The position numbers and the translations under genes are program-made. A stretch of 64,000 nucleotides of DNA, from positions 62,001 through 126,000 of the forward strand of contig NZ_LJZS01000010.1 of NCBI RefSeq assembly GCF_001314875.1, written 5' to 3'. The stretch comes from Halomonas sp. HL-48. Lineage in GTDB: Bacteria > Pseudomonadota > Gammaproteobacteria > Pseudomonadales > Halomonadaceae. Under the pieces are notes generated by a model. That model searched no databases and was not told the origin of the DNA. It saw only the letters and a program-made list of their open reading frames with translations. Below, piece by piece: positions 3,823 to 12,330 of the stretch (positions within the stretch are counted from its first letter, which is position 1; every line of letters begins with the position of its first letter).

Positions 3823-4721
3823 GCATAACGTACCTGATTGGCCACGTTGGCCGGGCTTGCCGCGACGCGTTTGACGACGCTACCCACGACAATCACGCAG
3901 GGCGACGGCAGCGGCTCGGCGGCCAATCGCCCGGGCATATCGGCCAGGCTGCCGACCAGTGACTGCTGATCAGGCTGACTGGCGTTGGCCACCAGCATGA
4001 TCGGCCAGTCGTCCGGCAGCCCCGCCTCGCGCAGGCCCGCGCAGATTGCGTCCACCTTGGAAAGCCCCATGTAAAACACCAGCGTTTCGTCGCGTCGCGC
4101 CAACGCCGCCCAGTCCGGCGTGCCGTCCTCCCGGCATAGCTGCGCGGTGACAAAACGCAACTGCTGGGCATGGCCCCGGTCGGTAAGCGGAATCCCCATG
4201 CAGGCCGCCGCCGAGGAGGCCGCTGTAATCCCGGGCACGATGGTGGCCGGCACCTGAGCGTCGGCCAAGGCATCGAGCTCTTCGCCCATGCGCCCGAAAA
4301 CGGCCGGGTCACCGCCTTTCAAGCGCACCACGGATTTGCCCTGCTGGGCCAGGCGCACCATCAGCGCGCCGATGTCAGCCTGGGGAACGCTATGATGGCC
4401 CTTGGCCTTGCCCACATAGTGCCGCTCGCCCCCCGAAGGAAGCAGCGCCAGAACGTCATCGCCCACCAGGCGGTCGTAGACCACGACATCGGCCTGCTGC
4501 AAAAGCCGCGCGGCCTTTAGCGTCAGCAGTTCGGCGTCGCCGCTGCCGGCGCCCACCAGGTACACGTGCCCGGGCTGACAGTCGCCGCCCAACGGGAGGG
4601 ACCGCGACATATCACGGCCGCTGCGGGGAAGCTCAAAGCGACTCGCCAAACGCGCCAAGGGGTTACACCATTTCAGAAGCTGGGATTTGCTTAGCGCGCG
4701 CATGGGGGCGTTCCTCTTCAA
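3810..4721 (-). CDS. cobA: Uroporphyrinogen-III C-methyltransferase (SUMT)
   Basis: VYLVGAGSGDAELLTLKAARLLQQADVVVYDRLV, VRLKGGDPAVFGR, VPGITAASSAAACMGIPLT; start may be internal (MRALSKS). Confidence 0.92.
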   Translation of the reverse strand: MKRNAPMRALSKSQLLKWCNPLARLASRFELPRSGRDMSRSLPLGGDCQPGHVYLVGAGSGDAELLTLKAARLLQQADVVVYDRLVGDDVLALLPSGGERHYVGKAKGHHSVPQADIGALMVRLAQQGKSVVRLKGGDPAVFGRMGEELDALADAQVPATIVPGITAASSAAACMGIPLTDRGHAQQLRFVTAQLCREDGTPDWAALARRDETLVFYMGLSKVDAICAGLREAGLPDDWPIMLVANASQPDQQSLVGSLADMPGRLAAEPLPSPCVIVVGSVVKRVAASPANVANQVRYACQR

Positions 4722-7383
4722 GTAATGATTTCAATTCGGGAATGCAGCTACCGCACTGGGTGCCGCACGCCAGTCGTGCGCCTAACGCCTCGACGCTGGT
4801 GTCGCCGCGCCGGATGGCCTCGACAATCGCTGTCTGGCCAACCTGATGGCAGCTACATACCACCGGGCCGCTATCCACCGCACCGTCATCGCACCCCGCC
4901 AGCAGACGGCGACGGTGGGTATCGCTCACCGCGTCGTCGTTGAAGCGTGCCTCCAGCCAGGCAAAGCCCGGCAGTTCGCTGGGCGGGCCCACCATCAGCC
5001 ACCAGCTGAGACGACCGTTTTCGATGCCTGCGGCGCGCAGCCGACCGGCGGCGGCATCTTCACACCATAGCGCCGGCGACGCGGACAGCCACTCGCCCAT
5101 CTGGTGGAACCAGTCGCCGACCGCCCTGCCGCCGGCCAGTTGCCAGCGCTGGCAGCCGCGCATCGGGATTCGCGTCCAGTAATCGCTTGCACACCAGCGC
5201 GGCGCATCAGGCAGCGACGCCAGGGCATGGTCAGCGACAAACAGCGTCGCCTGCCAGGCGGTCGGCAAGGGCGCCAGGGCCACGGCACCGTGCTTGGCTT
5301 CCGGCTGACCGGAAAGCGGATCGGTGATGCCATCGATCAAGGCACTGCTGCGCGCGCTATGAGTAAAGCAGTCGGTCCAGTGAATCGGCACGAAGACTTC
5401 GCCGCGCCGCTGGGCATGGGCCACTCTCACCCGTGCGCGATACTCACCGGTGGCAGCGGTCAACACGCCAAGCGCCTGGTCGGTGACGCCCGCCTGGGCG
5501 GCATCGTCCGGATGCACCTCCATGAAAGGCTCGGCGCGGTGATTCATCAGCCGCGGTGAGCGTGCGGTGCGCGTCATGGTATGCCATTGATCGCGAATCC
5601 GGCCGGTATTCAGCCGCAACGGGTAGGCGTTACTCAAGGCTTGCTCCGGCCCACGCGGGGTAATCGGCACCAGCCGGGCCCGGCCGTCGGCCGTTGCGAA
5701 CCACCCATCTTCAAACAAACGCGCGGTGCCCTGGGGGGCATCGCCATTCACCGGCCACTGAATCGGCGCGAGCGCATCATAGCCGTCGCGGCCAAGCCCG
5801 ACCAGCCCTGAAATATCGAAAAGGCGCTGCGTGGCGCCGATATTGTCAACGCCGGAGAGCCGCGCGTGCTCGTCAAAGATCTCACTGGAGTGAGCATAGT
5901 CAAACGCCTCGCCAAAGCCCAAATGCTTGGCGACGTCGCAGATGATCTGCCAGTCGTGGCGCGCCTCGCCGGGGGGTGGCAGCATGCCCCGCTGGCGCGA
6001 AATACAGCGCTCGGAATTGGTCACAGTACCATCTTTCTCGGACCACCCGGACGCGGGCAGCACGATGTCGGCGTAGGGCAGCAGGTCGGTATGCGCCGCG
6101 CATTCCGAGACGATCACCAGCGGGCACTTTTCCAGCGCGGCACGCACGCGGGCAGCATCGGGCAGGCTAATCGCCGGGTTGGTGGCCATCACCCACAGCA
6201 CCTTGATGTCGCCGCGCTCAATCGCCTCAAAGAGATCGACCGCCTTGTGGCCGGGGCCTTCCGGTAGGATGGGCACGAGGTTATCGGTGGCCCAGAAGCG
6301 GCTGACCCGTTCCCGCGCGCCGGGGGTGTCGTAATCCATGTGCGCCGCCAACTGGTTGGCCAGGCCGCCGACTTCACGGCCGCCCATGGCATTGGGCTGG
6401 CCGGTGATCGAGAACGGACCGGCTCCAGGCAGGCCGATTTTGCCGCCGGCCAGGTGACAGTTGATGATGGCGTTGCACTTATCCGTACCGCTGGACGACT
6501 GATTGACCCCCTGGGAATACAGGGTCACCACGTGGAGCTGGCTTGCAAACCAGTAGTAGAGGGTTTCCAGCCGCTCGGCGTCTACTTCGCAGGCCGCCGC
6601 CACCTCAGCGATGGAACTGGCCGACTGCTGCGCGGCGCTTAACGCATCGTCAAACCCTTGGGTATGGCGCTCAAGGTACAAAGCGTCCAGCTTGTGCTTG
6701 GCCGCCATCCAGGCCAGCAGGCCGTTGAACAACACCGCATCGCTGCCGGGCTTGATACCCAGATACAGGTCGGCAATCTCACAGCTATCGGTCACGCGCG
6801 GGTCGATCACCACGACCCGCATCAACGGATTGCGCTCCTTGGCGACTTTAATCCGCTGATAGAGAACCGGATGGTTCCAGGCCAGGTTGGACCCCACCAA
6901 CACCACCAGCTCCGCCTCTTCCAGATCCTCGTAGTTGCACGGCACGGCGTCGGCACCAAAGGCGCGCTTGTAGGCGGCCACCGCCGACGCCATGCACAGC
7001 CGCGAGTTGGTATCCAGATGCGGCGTGCCCAGAAAGCCCTTGAACAGCTTGTTGGCCGCGTAATAATCCTCGGTCAGCAGCTGTCCTGACAGATAGGCCG
7101 CCACGCACTGGTTACCGTGGGCGCGGCGCAGCGCGTTCATGCGCTCGGCGGTGGCGTTCAAGGCGGTGTCCCAGGACACCTCCTTGCCATCCACCCGCGG
7201 TCGAATCAGGCGGCCCTGTTTGCCCAGCGTTTCGTGCAGCGCCGAGCCTTTCACGCACAGCCGGCCGAAGTTGGCGGGATGGTCGCGGTCGCCCTCCACG
7301 GCGTCAAGGGCGCCGTCCGCTATGGTCGCGGTAACGCCGCAGCCAACGCCGCAGTAGGGGCAGGTCGTCTTGGCTTGGTGCAT
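4663..7383 (-). CDS. nasA: Assimilatory nitrate reductase catalytic subunit (Mo-bisMGD, N-terminal 4Fe-4S, C-terminal BFD-like 2Fe-2S domain)
   Basis: TTCPYCGVGCGV, molybdopterin oxidoreductase motifs (GANQ-type region, NPAISLPDAARV), C-terminal VVCSCHQVGQ...CGTQCGSCIPELK; start chosen at MHQAKTTCPYCG with upstream RBS gaggagt. Confidence 0.93.
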   Translation of the reverse strand: MHQAKTTCPYCGVGCGVTATIADGALDAVEGDRDHPANFGRLCVKGSALHETLGKQGRLIRPRVDGKEVSWDTALNATAERMNALRRAHGNQCVAAYLSGQLLTEDYYAANKLFKGFLGTPHLDTNSRLCMASAVAAYKRAFGADAVPCNYEDLEEAELVVLVGSNLAWNHPVLYQRIKVAKERNPLMRVVVIDPRVTDSCEIADLYLGIKPGSDAVLFNGLLAWMAAKHKLDALYLERHTQGFDDALSAAQQSASSIAEVAAACEVDAERLETLYYWFASQLHVVTLYSQGVNQSSSGTDKCNAIINCHLAGGKIGLPGAGPFSITGQPNAMGGREVGGLANQLAAHMDYDTPGARERVSRFWATDNLVPILPEGPGHKAVDLFEAIERGDIKVLWVMATNPAISLPDAARVRAALEKCPLVIVSECAAHTDLLPYADIVLPASGWSEKDGTVTNSERCISRQRGMLPPPGEARHDWQIICDVAKHLGFGEAFDYAHSSEIFDEHARLSGVDNIGATQRLFDISGLVGLGRDGYDALAPIQWPVNGDAPQGTARLFEDGWFATADGRARLVPITPRGPEQALSNAYPLRLNTGRIRDQWHTMTRTARSPRLMNHRAEPFMEVHPDDAAQAGVTDQALGVLTAATGEYRARVRVAHAQRRGEVFVPIHWTDCFTHSARSSALIDGITDPLSGQPEAKHGAVALAPLPTAWQATLFVADHALASLPDAPRWCASDYWTRIPMRGCQRWQLAGGRAVGDWFHQMGEWLSASPALWCEDAAAGRLRAAGIENGRLSWWLMVGPPSELPGFAWLEARFNDDAVSDTHRRRLLAGCDDGAVDSGPVVCSCHQVGQTAIVEAIRRGDTSVEALGARLACGTQCGSCIPELKSLLEEERPHARAKQIPASEMV

Positions 7384-7417
7384 GGTGACTCCTCGGCTGA
7401 TTGCCAACGCCGCACAT

Positions 7418-7475
7418 AAAAAAACGCCCAGGCCGCTGACCTGGTTGCGCAAAGCGCAAGGCGATCAGCAGGCTG
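7418..7475 (-). promoter_or_regulatory. Putative leader hairpins/terminator upstream of nasA
   Basis: Minus strand reads TTGCGC-TTT-GCGCAA, then CCAGG-tcagcgg-CCTGG GCG TTTTTTT, T-tract at 7424-7418, about 35 nt before the nasA ATG. Confidence 0.45.
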
Positions 7476-7626
7476 GACGTCGTTGCCGCAGCGGGCACCG
7501 TTAAAGGTGCCAAACGTATTGTGTAAAGATACTTATTTGTCTAACAACGTTATTGGGCTTGTTCGCTGCCACTGTTTTTTGATGAACGCACTAACATGCG
7601 CGTTTGTTGCTTATGCCTGAATAGCT

Positions 7627-7642
7627 GCAAAGGCTACGCCGT
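7627..7642 (-). promoter_or_regulatory. Candidate sigma54 -24/-12 element for nasA (weak)
   Basis: Minus strand ACGGCGTAGCCTTTGCA: GG and GC spaced 12 nt, GGC and TTGCA match the consensus. Confidence 0.25.
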
Positions 7643-7772
7643 CACCGCGCACTTCCAATAAAAAAACCGGTAAAACAGTATTTTAAAAGACTTCACCGGC
7701 ACCTTTTGATCATCCAATCCCCGTGCACCGCTTGATATTTTGGGTGTTGAGAGTGCAATTCGTCGCCCGGTA

Positions 7773-7789
7773 CGCACCAACAGCGTGCA
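7773..7789. promoter_or_regulatory. Candidate NtrC binding site
   Basis: cGCACC-aacag-CGTGCa versus consensus TGCACC-N5-GGTGCA. Confidence 0.35.
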
Positions 7790-7876
7790 CCACAGCCCGG
7801 GGAGCAACGCACAGACACTTACTATGCTCATTTTCAAAATGATGAAAATAAAGCAAAAAAACGTCATGCGCGCAGT

Positions 7877-7893
7877 TTGGCCGTAGGTTTGCT
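7877..7893 (+). promoter_or_regulatory. Candidate sigma54 promoter of the FAD reductase-nirBD operon
   Basis: TTGGCCGTAGGTTTGCT: GG/GC spacing of 12 nt, matches YTGGC...TTGCW. Confidence 0.4.
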
Positions 7894-7933
7894 TATTACT
7901 GACAAGACAATCGTTGGTAATCGTAAATTTGTC

Positions 7934-8040
7934 GGCAGCCAATGGCGGTTGCCCCGCATTACCAGACGCAGCCGGGCAATGGCGCCCCTGATTCCGGTTT
8001 TCCTGAGGTCCAGGAAAAGCGATGGATCAGGGGCGTTTTT
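7934..8040 (+). promoter_or_regulatory. ANTAR-type (NasT-responsive) dual-hexaloop leader with overlapping intrinsic terminator
   Basis: P1 GGCAGCC-AATGGC-GGTTGCC (7934-7953); P2 GGGC-AATGGC-GCCC (7974-7987); terminator CGCCCCTGAT (7983-7992)...ATCAGGGGCG (8026-8035) TTTTT. P2 overlaps the 5' arm of the terminator; both loops have A1 and G4. Confidence 0.7.
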
Positions 8041-8082
8041 GTTTGGCGCTCAAGCAGCCGCAACGTCACAGAGGAGTCACCC

Positions 8083-9378
8083 ATGGAAACCGTTTCCCGG
8101 TGCTCACCTAATGATCATCTCGTCATTATCGGCAACGGCATGGCCAGCCACCGTCTGGTGGAAGCTCTGATCAACCAGCCGCAACGCCCCAGGGCGATTA
8201 CCGTGATCGGGGCAGAGCCAACGCCTGCCTACAACCGTATTCTGCTGTCGCCGCTCCTGGCGGGCGACATGCAGCACGATGCACTTACCCTGCGCGATGC
8301 CGACTGGTACGCCGACAACGACGTAACGCTTCGTCTTGGCGAACAGGTTGAAACCATTGATCGTGAGAAACGCTGCTTGGCCACCGACAGCGGCCATACC
8401 ATTCACTACGACCGACTCGTGCTGGCCACCGGCTCGCGCCCGACGCTGCCTGACGTGCCCGGCATCAAGCTTGGCGGCGTCCACGGCTTTCGCGACCTGG
8501 ACGATGCCGCCGAGCTGGAGGCGATCGCCAAGCGCGGCGGTCATGCGCTGGTCATCGGCGGCGGCCTGCTGGGCCTTGAAGCCGCTGAAGGGCTGCGCAA
8601 ACGCGGCAACGGGCTAAGTGTCAGCGTGCTCCAGCGCAGCGAGCGCTTGATGAATCGCCAGCTTGATGCCACCGCCGCCGATCTACTCAAAGATGCGCTG
8701 ACAAGGCGCGGGCTAAACATTATCACCCACGCCCAGCTCGCAAGGCTCGAAGGCGACGTCAATGGTCAGGTGTGCGCCGCGGTGCTCACGGATGGGCGCC
8801 ACCTGCCCACCGACAGCGTGATCATCGCCGCAGGCATTACGCCCAACGCCGATATCGGGCGCAACGCCGGCCTCAACACCGAGCGGGCCGTGATGGTTGA
8901 CGCCTTCCTGACGACGTCAGACCCGGCGATTTATGCCCTGGGCGAATGCTGCCAGTTTGAGCAGCACACCTATGGCCTGGTCGAGCCCATTTGGCACCAG
9001 GTCGAGGTATTGGCGGCGACCCTCTGCGGCGCACCCACCAACGGCTACCGCGAAGTGCCCACGGCCACCAAGCTCAAGGTAAGCGGCGTCGCGCTTTATG
9101 CGTTCGGCCCCACCGACCCTGGACCCGAGCACGACGAGCTGCGCTACCAGGACCCCCTAAGCGGTGACTACCGCCGCCTGCTGCTACGCGATGGGCGCCT
9201 CGAAGGCGCCGTGCTATACGGCGATACCCGCCACGGCCCGTGGTATTTCGAGCAGGCCCTGGCCGGCGCTGACCTGAGCGCATCTCGCCAGGCGCTACTA
9301 TTTGGCGCCGCCGATGTAGCAGTGCTCAAAGATCAGCAGAACGACACACCCCATTTATCGACTTCAGAGGCGGCATAA
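8083..9378 (+). CDS. NAD(P)/FAD-dependent oxidoreductase, nitrate/nitrite assimilation reductase component
   Basis: LVIIGNGMASHRLVEAL, VLATGSRPTLPDVPG, ALVIGGGLLGLEAAEGL; homologous to the NirB N-terminus. METVSRCSP start preceded by RBS gaggag; the 7942 ORF start lies upstream of a terminator. Confidence 0.88.
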   Translation: METVSRCSPNDHLVIIGNGMASHRLVEALINQPQRPRAITVIGAEPTPAYNRILLSPLLAGDMQHDALTLRDADWYADNDVTLRLGEQVETIDREKRCLATDSGHTIHYDRLVLATGSRPTLPDVPGIKLGGVHGFRDLDDAAELEAIAKRGGHALVIGGGLLGLEAAEGLRKRGNGLSVSVLQRSERLMNRQLDATAADLLKDALTRRGLNIITHAQLARLEGDVNGQVCAAVLTDGRHLPTDSVIIAAGITPNADIGRNAGLNTERAVMVDAFLTTSDPAIYALGECCQFEQHTYGLVEPIWHQVEVLAATLCGAPTNGYREVPTATKLKVSGVALYAFGPTDPGPEHDELRYQDPLSGDYRRLLLRDGRLEGAVLYGDTRHGPWYFEQALAGADLSASRQALLFGAADVAVLKDQQNDTPHLSTSEAA

Positions 9379-11894
9379 TGATGTCTTCCAAGAATCCCGA
9401 ACAGCTTATTATTATTGGTAACGGCATGGTCGGCCACCACCTGGTCGAGCAGCTCGTTGATAACGGCGCGCTTGAGCGTTATCAGGTCACCGTGTTTGGC
9501 GAAGAGCGTCACCGTGCCTATGATCGCGTCCACCTGTCGGAATATTTCAGCGGCCGCGATGCCGAATCGCTCGCCCTTTGCGACGCCGACTACTACTCCA
9601 CCAGCGGCGTCACGCTGCGCACCGGCGAAGCCGTGACGCACATCGACCGCGACCAGCAGGAGGTAGTGACCGACCAGGGCCGCTACCCCTACCACAAGCT
9701 GGTGCTGGCCACCGGCTCCTACCCCTTTGTGCCGCCAATTCCCGGCAACGACCGGGACGGCTGCCTGGTCTACCGTACGCTGGACGACCTGGACGACATT
9801 CGCGCAGCGGCCGAAAACGCCACCAACGGCGTAGTAGTCGGCGGCGGGCTACTGGGCCTGGAGGCCGCCAATGCGCTGCGCGGCTTGAACCTGGATACCG
9901 CCGTGGTCGAGTTTGCCTCGCGGCTGATGCCCATGCAGGTGGATAACGAAGGCGGCGAGCTGCTGCGCGAAAAAATCGAAGCTTTGGGCGTGCAGGTGCT
10001 CACCGAGCGGGCCACCCAGCGCATCGAGGACGGCGACGCGAGCCATCACCGCATGGTCTTCCAGGACGACAAGGTGCTGGAAACCGACCTGATCGTGTTC
10101 TCGGCGGGCATTCGCCCCCGCGACCAACTGGCCCGGGACTGCGATCTGGAAATCGGCGAACGCGGCGGCGTGGTGGTCGACGACCAGTGCCTCACCAGCG
10201 ACCCCGCCATCCTGGCGATTGGCGAAGTGGCGCTGTGGAACCAGAGCATTTTCGGCCTGGTAGCCCCCGGCTATCAAATGGCCAAGGCGGCACTGGCCAC
10301 GCTGACCGACGGCGATACCCGCTTTAGCGGCGCGGACATGAGTACCAAGCTCAAACTGCTCGGCGTGGATGTGGGGTCAATTGGCGATGCCCACGGCAAT
10401 CAGAACCCGGGCGCGCGCATGTTCCGCTACCTCGACCCGCTCACTCAGGTGTACCGCAAGATGGTCGTCTCCAGCGACGGCAAAAAGCTGCTCGGCGCCA
10501 TGCTGGTGGGCGATAACAGCGCCTACGACACCCTGCTGCAGTACTATTCAAACGGCATCGAGCTGCCGGAGGAACCCGCCTCGCTAATTCTGCCGCAAAG
10601 CAGTGGCGCCGCCCCCACGCTCGGCCCCGGTGCGCTGCCGGAAACCGCTACTATTTGCTCCTGCCATAACGTCACCAAGGGCGATATTTGCGCCACCATC
10701 GATGACGGCGCAGTTGACCTTGGCGGTGTCAAAGGCGTGACCAAAGCTAGCACCGGCTGCGGCGGCTGCACCGCGCTGCTCAAGAGCGTGGTGGATCACG
10801 AACTGGAAGCCCGCGGCGTGGAGGTCGACAAATCGATCTGCGAGCACTTCGCCTTCACCCGACAGGGGCTTTACGACATCGTCCGAGTGGAAGGCATTAA
10901 GACCTTCAGCGAGCTGATCGACAAGCACGGCAATCCTGAGACCCATCGCCTGGGCTGCGATATCTGCAAACCCGCCGTGGCCTCGATTCTGGCGTCGTGC
11001 TTTAACGAGCCGATCACCGACGCCGCGCATGTGCCCTTGCAGGATACCAACGACAGCTTCATGGCCAACATGCAGAAAAACGGCACCTACTCGGTGGTGC
11101 CGCGGGTTGCCGGTGGTGAAATCACCCCCGACAAGCTAATCGCGCTTGGCGCGGTGGCCAAGAAATATGACCTCTACTCCAAGGTTACCGGCGGCCAGCG
11201 CATCGACTTGTTCGGTGCCCGCCTGGAAGACCTGCCGGATATCTGGAGCGAGCTGATCGACGCCGGCTTTGAGACCGGCCACGCCTATGGCAAATCGCTG
11301 CGTACGGTGAAATCCTGCGTCGGCAGCACCTGGTGCCGTTACGGCGTGCAGGACAGCGTCGGCATGGCGATCCAACTTGAGAACCGCTACAAGGGCCTGC
11401 GTGCGCCGCACAAGATCAAATTTGGCGTTTCCGGCTGCACCCGTGAGTGCGCCGAAGCCCAAAGCAAAGATATCGGCATTATTGCCACGGAAAACGGCTG
11501 GAACCTGTATGTGTGCGGTAACGGCGGCATGCGCCCGCGCCACGCTGAACTGTTCGCTACAGACCTGGACGACGAGCAGCTGTACCGCACTATTGACCGC
11601 TTCCTGATGTTCTACGTGCGCACCGCCGACCGTCTCCAGCGCACCTCGGTATGGCGCGAGAATCTCGACGGCGGCCTGGACTACCTCAAGGACGTCATCC
11701 TGGAAGACAGCCTGGGCATCAACGACGAGCTGGAGCGTCAGATGCAGACTGTGGTGGATACCTACCAGTGCGAATGGGCGGATGCGATCAGCGATCCAGA
11801 AAAACTCAAGCGTTTCAGAAGCTTTGTCAACGATGAGCGCCCGGACCCGTCAATCATCATGACCAGCGAGCGCGGCCAGCTTCGGCCTGCTTGA
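9378..11894 (+). CDS. nirB: Nitrite reductase [NAD(P)H] large subunit
   Basis: FAD/NAD domains, BFD 2Fe-2S (CSCHNVTKGDI...STGCGGC), siroheme/4Fe-4S motif (VGSTWCRYGVQDS...GVSGCTRECAEAQ). Confidence 0.96.
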   Translation: MMSSKNPEQLIIIGNGMVGHHLVEQLVDNGALERYQVTVFGEERHRAYDRVHLSEYFSGRDAESLALCDADYYSTSGVTLRTGEAVTHIDRDQQEVVTDQGRYPYHKLVLATGSYPFVPPIPGNDRDGCLVYRTLDDLDDIRAAAENATNGVVVGGGLLGLEAANALRGLNLDTAVVEFASRLMPMQVDNEGGELLREKIEALGVQVLTERATQRIEDGDASHHRMVFQDDKVLETDLIVFSAGIRPRDQLARDCDLEIGERGGVVVDDQCLTSDPAILAIGEVALWNQSIFGLVAPGYQMAKAALATLTDGDTRFSGADMSTKLKLLGVDVGSIGDAHGNQNPGARMFRYLDPLTQVYRKMVVSSDGKKLLGAMLVGDNSAYDTLLQYYSNGIELPEEPASLILPQSSGAAPTLGPGALPETATICSCHNVTKGDICATIDDGAVDLGGVKGVTKASTGCGGCTALLKSVVDHELEARGVEVDKSICEHFAFTRQGLYDIVRVEGIKTFSELIDKHGNPETHRLGCDICKPAVASILASCFNEPITDAAHVPLQDTNDSFMANMQKNGTYSVVPRVAGGEITPDKLIALGAVAKKYDLYSKVTGGQRIDLFGARLEDLPDIWSELIDAGFETGHAYGKSLRTVKSCVGSTWCRYGVQDSVGMAIQLENRYKGLRAPHKIKFGVSGCTRECAEAQSKDIGIIATENGWNLYVCGNGGMRPRHAELFATDLDDEQLYRTIDRFLMFYVRTADRLQRTSVWRENLDGGLDYLKDVILEDSLGINDELERQMQTVVDTYQCEWADAISDPEKLKRFRSFVNDERPDPSIIMTSERGQLRPA

Positions 11895-11937: not shown

Positions 11938-12330
11938 ATGACCGCAACGGCAATGAAAAAAGAGATGGACACTGTGGATTCCGAAAACAGCAAGGTATGG
12001 CAAAAAATCTGCACCCAAGCCGACCTGGTGGCGTTCTCCGGCGTCGCCGCCTGGCTTGAAACCGCCGATGGGCCCGCCCAGGTGGCGGTTTTTTATCTTC
12101 CCGACCAAGGGAATGAGCTTTTCGCGCTGGACCATCACGACCCTTTTTCCAACGCCAATGTGATTGCCCGAGGGATTGTGGGCGATCTTAAAGGCTCGGC
12201 GGTGGTCGCCTCGCCTATCTACAAGCAGCACTTCCGACTGGAAGACGGTCAGTGCCTGGAAGACGAGGACGTCAAACTGCGGACCTGGAAGATCGAATTT
12301 AAAGGGGATGAGGTGTGGATTGAGGGGTAG
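11938..12330 (+). CDS. nirD: Nitrite reductase small subunit
   Basis: Rieske-like NirD family (VAVFYLPDQGNELFALDHHDPFSNANVIARGIVGDLKGSAVVASPIYKQHF). Confidence 0.93.
   Translation: MTATAMKKEMDTVDSENSKVWQKICTQADLVAFSGVAAWLETADGPAQVAVFYLPDQGNELFALDHHDPFSNANVIARGIVGDLKGSAVVASPIYKQHFRLEDGQCLEDEDVKLRTWKIEFKGDEVWIEG

Follow-up and report, generated by a model that had tools for sequence, protein, structure and literature searches.

The nitrite reductase operon in the window that we analysed (a 64-kb stretch, C29:62001-126000, within a 3.55-Mb genome closest to Vreelandella/Halomonas) is preceded by a leader at 7934-8040 that is very probably a transcription attenuator responding to nitrate or nitrite and read by the NasR that this genome encodes. 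We take it for a NasR-type antitermination leader because we observed a characteristic anatomy, its conservation with covarying stems, a single ANTAR gene of the NasR type and the co-occurrence of such leaders with ANTAR genes, and because a promoter is predicted upstream.

Anatomy of the leader and the operon behind it

The leader lies on the plus strand and opens with a first ANTAR hexaloop hairpin, P1 (7934-7953: GGCAGCC at 7934-7940, loop AATGGC at 7941-7946, GGTTGCC at 7947-7953), which a 20-nt linker (7954-7973) separates from a second, P2, the putative antiterminator (7974-7987: GGGC at 7974-7977, loop AATGGC at 7978-7983, GCCC at 7984-7987). Sequence and folding place an intrinsic terminator that shares bases with P2 at 7983-8040, where CGCCCCTGAT (7983-7992) pairs with ATCAGGGGCG (8026-8035) and is followed by the U-tract TTTTT (8036-8040). 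The hexaloop AATGGC is identical in P1 and P2; it begins with A and has G as its fourth letter, in line with the A1/G4 dual-hexaloop rule (PMC3369931, PMC8934654). Since positions 7984-7987 belong both to the 3' arm of P2 and to the 5' arm of the terminator, the two structures are mutually exclusive. An earlier note on this DNA had proposed the coordinates of these three elements, the shared hexaloop and the mutual exclusivity, all of which agree with the sequence base for base; its Y-shaped terminator had to be dropped, as folding gives a rod with small internal loops and no three-way junction, in which the nested TTTTCCTG/CAGGAAAA stem is stacked within the main stem. Apical terminator sequences differ among relatives.

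The leader region folds better than its shuffles (z -4.9). A descriptor that asks for a pair of A1/G4 hexaloop hairpins, the second of them overlapped by a terminator, had a single match in the 64-kb window, both strands counted, and never matched in 40 random order-1 Markov windows with the same dinucleotide make-up. The P2 stem has just 4 bp in this lineage, which counts against NasR antitermination.

Downstream, on the same strand, a ribosome-binding site AGAGGAG (8070-8076; GAGGAG or AAGGAG in relatives) precedes the first controlled gene, encoding an FAD/NAD(P) reductase (8083-9378; Pfam Pyr_redox_2, 8.5e-54; partial TIGR02374 match) whose product is related to the N-terminal half of NirB. 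It is followed by nirB for the nitrite reductase large subunit (9378-11894; TIGR02374, 1052 bits, above cut-off) and nirD for the small subunit (11938-12330; TIGR02378, 96 bits, above cut-off). The divergent gene at 4663-7383 on the minus strand was assigned as nasA, assimilatory nitrate reductase, from similarity and context, its matches to the NasC model (441 bits) and to related molybdoenzyme models being below the curated cut-offs. A siroheme synthase-like gene is oriented with nasA, opposite to FAD reductase-nirB-nirD.

Conservation and covariation

We found 80 loci related to the FAD reductase, and the arrangement of hairpins and terminator is present in 73 (72 from Halomonadaceae and one from Cohnella); the 7 loci that lack it belong to distant relatives and are not clear orthologues. 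In a few of the 72 Halomonadaceae loci (e.g. L062, L068) the canonical P1 is uncertain or sits at a large distance upstream. The overlap of P2 and terminator is maintained among the orthologous leaders, with a P1-P2 linker of 5-39 nt in most relatives and a longer one in a few. Four nirB leaders (L025, L028, L032, L043) have a 38-39 nt linker containing an extra GC-rich hairpin. The Gram-positive Cohnella thailandensis (L074) carries a dual-hexaloop attenuator before a related reductase gene, and one ANTAR gene.

Among 51 distinct P1+P2 sequences, 94.5% of cells are paired and both sides have changed in 8 of the 11 stem pairs (6/7 in P1, 2/4 in P2). Cells with both-side changes number 110, against a mean of 31.8 after shuffling and a maximum of 31 in slid versions. 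P1 stems co-change, for example, between GGCAGCC/GGYTGCC, GCGATC/GATCGC and GACGGTC/GACCGTC. In script-aligned leaders the P1 loop has A1/G4 in 71/71 and the P2 loop has G4 in 71/71, a conservation that is partly built in because P1 was located by A1/G4 and P2 by G4; the raw leader sequences agree with these letters. Position 1 of the P2 loop, which was free in the search and only added to the score, is A in 51 leaders and G in the other 20 of 71, and these 20 count against NasR antitermination. The expectation that orthologous leaders would conserve both hairpins with compensatory changes was therefore confirmed, with A1/G4 in P1 and with G4 and A1, or sometimes G1, in P2. P2 hexaloops with G1, of the GAAGAC type, occur in L026, L029, L031, L033 and others, mostly in NasT genomes; since L029, L035 and L040 break this tendency, we make no claim of a tie to NasT. 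The R1 covariance model turned up no other canonical dual-hexaloop leader in the genome, its second-best place scoring only 21 bits.

Promoter and transcript start

A sigma-54-type promoter, TGGCCGTAGGTTTGCT (GG-N10-GC, here TGGC-N8-TTGCT), is predicted at 7878-7893 on the plus strand, 42 bases 5' of P1, with a consensus score of 13/16. Most relatives have one at a similar position, and the score averages 12.9 across 71 leaders compared with 10.1 for shuffled sequence. GG/GC at -24/-12 is the sigma-54 pattern and is expected at nitrogen-controlled genes. From the usual -12 spacing, transcription would start near 7904. The predicted promoter is conserved, is upstream of P1 and not downstream of 7990, and would place both hairpins within the transcript. 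A scan for a sigma-70 promoter gave none.

The regulator and its co-occurrence with the leader

The genome, estimated to be 100% complete, contains a single ANTAR gene, at C29:48186-49448, about 12.6 kb to the left of the window and about 20 kb upstream of the leader. Its product carries NIT and ANTAR domains (Pfam), as in NasR, and matches 4AKK, the solved structure of a nitrate regulatory protein, over residues 10-411. The earlier note had called the leader an ANTAR/NasT-type attenuator and had suggested searching the genome for an ANTAR-domain gene; with one such gene present, of the NIT-ANTAR kind, the ANTAR part of that proposal stands and the NasT part does not. That nasR is 20 kb distant and not adjacent to the leader counts against the NasR reading. 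The gene is directly 3' of a NarK-type transporter gene, ahead of which we looked for an attenuator and found none. This narK frame has an in-frame TAG at codon 27 (L150 3846-3848; C29:46845-46847), reflecting a broken gene, recoding or an assembly error, so that some impairment of its operon is possible in this assembly, a further point against the NasR reading.

An ANTAR gene is present in 79 of the 80 genomes behind the related loci. Typing by open-frame length, together with a Pfam scan of nine proteins, assigns NasR (NIT-ANTAR) to the Vreelandella-type group, NasT (receiver-ANTAR) to many other Halomonas, and both to six genomes; in several genomes of the NasT lineages, nasT is about 1.2-1.4 kb from the leader. 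The R1 leader model matched 46 of 151 family genomes at E <= 1e-4, a lower bound because R1 misses long-linker leaders (those of the two Vreelandella genomes of L028 and L043). Each of these 46 genomes also carries an ANTAR gene, against 60 of the 105 others (106/151 overall; Fisher p 2.7e-9, no correction for relatedness). Weaker R1 matches (E 1e-4 to 1e-2), a number of which fell in genomes lacking an ANTAR gene, were taken as chance.

The use of NasT in sister lineages raises the alternative of an ANTAR leader served by a regulator other than the NIT-ANTAR NasR, such as a missed NasT. We consider this very unlikely, given exactly one ANTAR match in a genome of this estimated completeness and a 2021 gene-content report in which NasR and NasST were almost mutually exclusive in Halomonas (PMC8014003).

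Comparison with Rfam families

An Rfam scan matched no ANTAR model and no riboswitch, so the check with the Rfam ANTAR covariance model put forward earlier yielded no ANTAR match. Weak matches to mir-718, HgcE and cold-seep-1 were discarded as chance. The narK RNA family (RF03032) matched partially, over P1 only, at 18.6 bits and below its gathering cut-off of 43.2, and P11 (RF00625; cut-off 70 bits) was unmatched in window positions 7000-9000 at E <= 10.

True or near-threshold narK RNA members in five genomes have a GGCA...TGC promoter, an A1/G4 P1, a P2 of the form GGAC/CGAC-AAAGGC-GTC and an overlapping terminator, and an ANTAR gene is present in 5/5 of these genomes. A P11 member (126 bits, one genome), with the same P2 and terminator as narK RNA, leads into a nirB-type reductase gene and lies about 3.6 kb beyond a narK RNA and 4 kb beyond an ANTAR gene. 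From this anatomy and the ANTAR genes, both families are probably ANTAR leaders; a literature search of limited coverage returned no statement linking narK RNA or P11 to ANTAR. The narK RNA and P11 members with a sigma-54-type promoter, A1/G4 hexaloops and a terminator that overlaps are those of L173 (1501-1567), L174 (1501-1571), L175-L177 and L178 (around 1501-1640). A 30-bit narK RNA match on contig C33, in a prs region without a nitrate gene, was rejected.

A mechanism without an ANTAR protein, whether a riboswitch for a metabolite or ion or attenuation mediated by the ribosome, would share the terminator/antiterminator design that is common to riboswitches, and the similar narK RNA is entered in Rfam as cis-regulatory with no protein named. 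We find such a mechanism highly improbable for the window leader, in which nothing besides the two hexaloops forms a conserved aptamer-like core, no Rfam riboswitch matches and the presence of the leader tracks ANTAR genes.

Proposed mechanism

In the scheme that we infer for promoter use, NasR binding, nitrate response and the order of events, which follows the dual-hexaloop (PMC3369931) and sequential-contact (PMC8934654) models, RNA polymerase would start near 7904 at the sigma-54-type promoter. Predicted energies are -12.1 kcal/mol for P1, -7.2 for P2 and -36.2 for the terminator, so that P2 could not compete unless held by a protein; without a signal, the more stable terminator would out-compete P2 and transcription would end around 8040. 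With nitrate or nitrite, the NIT domain of NasR would activate its ANTAR domain, which would engage the hexaloop of P1 and then that of P2 as each leaves the polymerase. Holding P2 closed would keep 7984-7987 from the terminator and allow FAD reductase-nirB-nirD to be transcribed. The high stability of the terminator alone would suit a reading in which the hexaloop hairpins arose by chance and the terminator simply acts constitutively on an upstream transcript or leader. That reading is hardly credible beside a pair of A1/G4 hairpins whose compensatory changes extend over dozens of species, a predicted promoter directly upstream of P1 and leader-ANTAR co-occurrence in 46/46 genomes.

A putative second attenuator ahead of the divergent nasA

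On the minus strand, the 7511-7418 leader of nasA comprises a P1 (7494-7511; stem GGCACC/GGTGCC) whose loop TTTAAC (RNA UUUAAC) is without A1/G4, a P2 with a canonical A1/G4 hexaloop (7476-7487; GGC-AACGAC-GTC) and a terminator GACGTCCAGCCTGCTGATC/GGTCAGCGGCCTGGGCG with T7 (7418-7481; folding z -4.8) that shares bases with P2, its stem (7481-7425) beginning inside P2. In 67 nasA leaders P2 is canonical nearly always, with loop AACGAC or AACGGC in 47, and P1 has an A1/G4 hexaloop in about 24 and other loops in about 43 (UUUAAC, UUUGAC, UUUAGC, GAUGAA, GGUGCA, pentaloops and others), these P1 counts including a few mis-assigned rows corrected by eye. A canonical nasA P1 loop is found in just 3 of 28 NasR-only Vreelandella-type genomes. 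The contrast between nirBD and nasA P1 loops has p about 3e-16, an approximate value since the nirBD count had A1/G4 as a search condition. A search for a canonical hexaloop farther upstream for nasA came up empty over 160 nt in the window, and relatives showed none that recurred consistently.

The P1-degenerate nasA leader could represent a variant. It is possible, if on balance doubtful, that it works as an ANTAR attenuator with P2 as its only recognition hexaloop, in which case the P1 stem would persist as a structural spacer with a loop free of A1/G4. If so, contact of an ANTAR dimer with both hexaloops in turn would not be a general rule of antitermination, and a single signal would lead NasR to regulate nasA and nirBD differently. 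Single-hexaloop ANTAR targets have been said to need further work (PMC8934654), and the pair of nirBD and nasA leaders offers a test made by nature of the sufficiency of one hexaloop.

Relation to known systems

These results add a probable leader target to NasR in Halomonadaceae, for which the presence of NasR and NasST was previously catalogued from gene content (PMC8014003). With a dual-hexaloop nirBD leader and a P1-degenerate nasA leader back to back, presumably under one regulator, the single-hexaloop question (PMC8934654) becomes directly testable in one organism. The analysis also suggests a possible function for Rfam narK RNA and P11, whose names omit ANTAR. The members of both families that we examined resemble the window leader, with a TGGCA...TGC promoter motif, an A1/G4 P1 in most and a P2 overlapping the terminator; their P2 is of the GGAC-AAAGGC-GTCC type and they precede narK, nirB-like or nitrate-transport genes, and the window leader matches narK RNA only partially and P11 not at all.

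The nirBD leader is almost certainly a dual-hexaloop NasR switch of a kind already known. The NasR/nasF leader of Klebsiella oxytoca was reportedly the subject of work by Chai and Stewart in 1998 and 1999. As here, that leader combines a NIT-ANTAR regulator and a nitrate-assimilation target with a pair of A1/G4 hexaloop hairpins of which the second overlaps an intrinsic terminator (PMC3369931). The target is nasFEDCBA in K. oxytoca and FAD reductase-nirBD here, where, unlike in K. oxytoca, nasR is 20 kb off behind a narK-type gene, the promoter is of the predicted sigma-54 type and a second leader stands on the divergent nasA. In Pseudomonas aeruginosa, antitermination by an ANTAR protein likewise precedes nirBD, according to Romeo 2012 (pmid 22493305) as cited in PMC7261876, with NasS-NasT in that account in place of the NasR-type regulator found here. 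The eut leaders of Enterococcus faecalis, read by EutV, share the A1/G4 dual hexaloop and the competition of P2 with the terminator (PMC3369931, PMC8934654), but answer to an ethanolamine two-component signal and control unrelated target genes.
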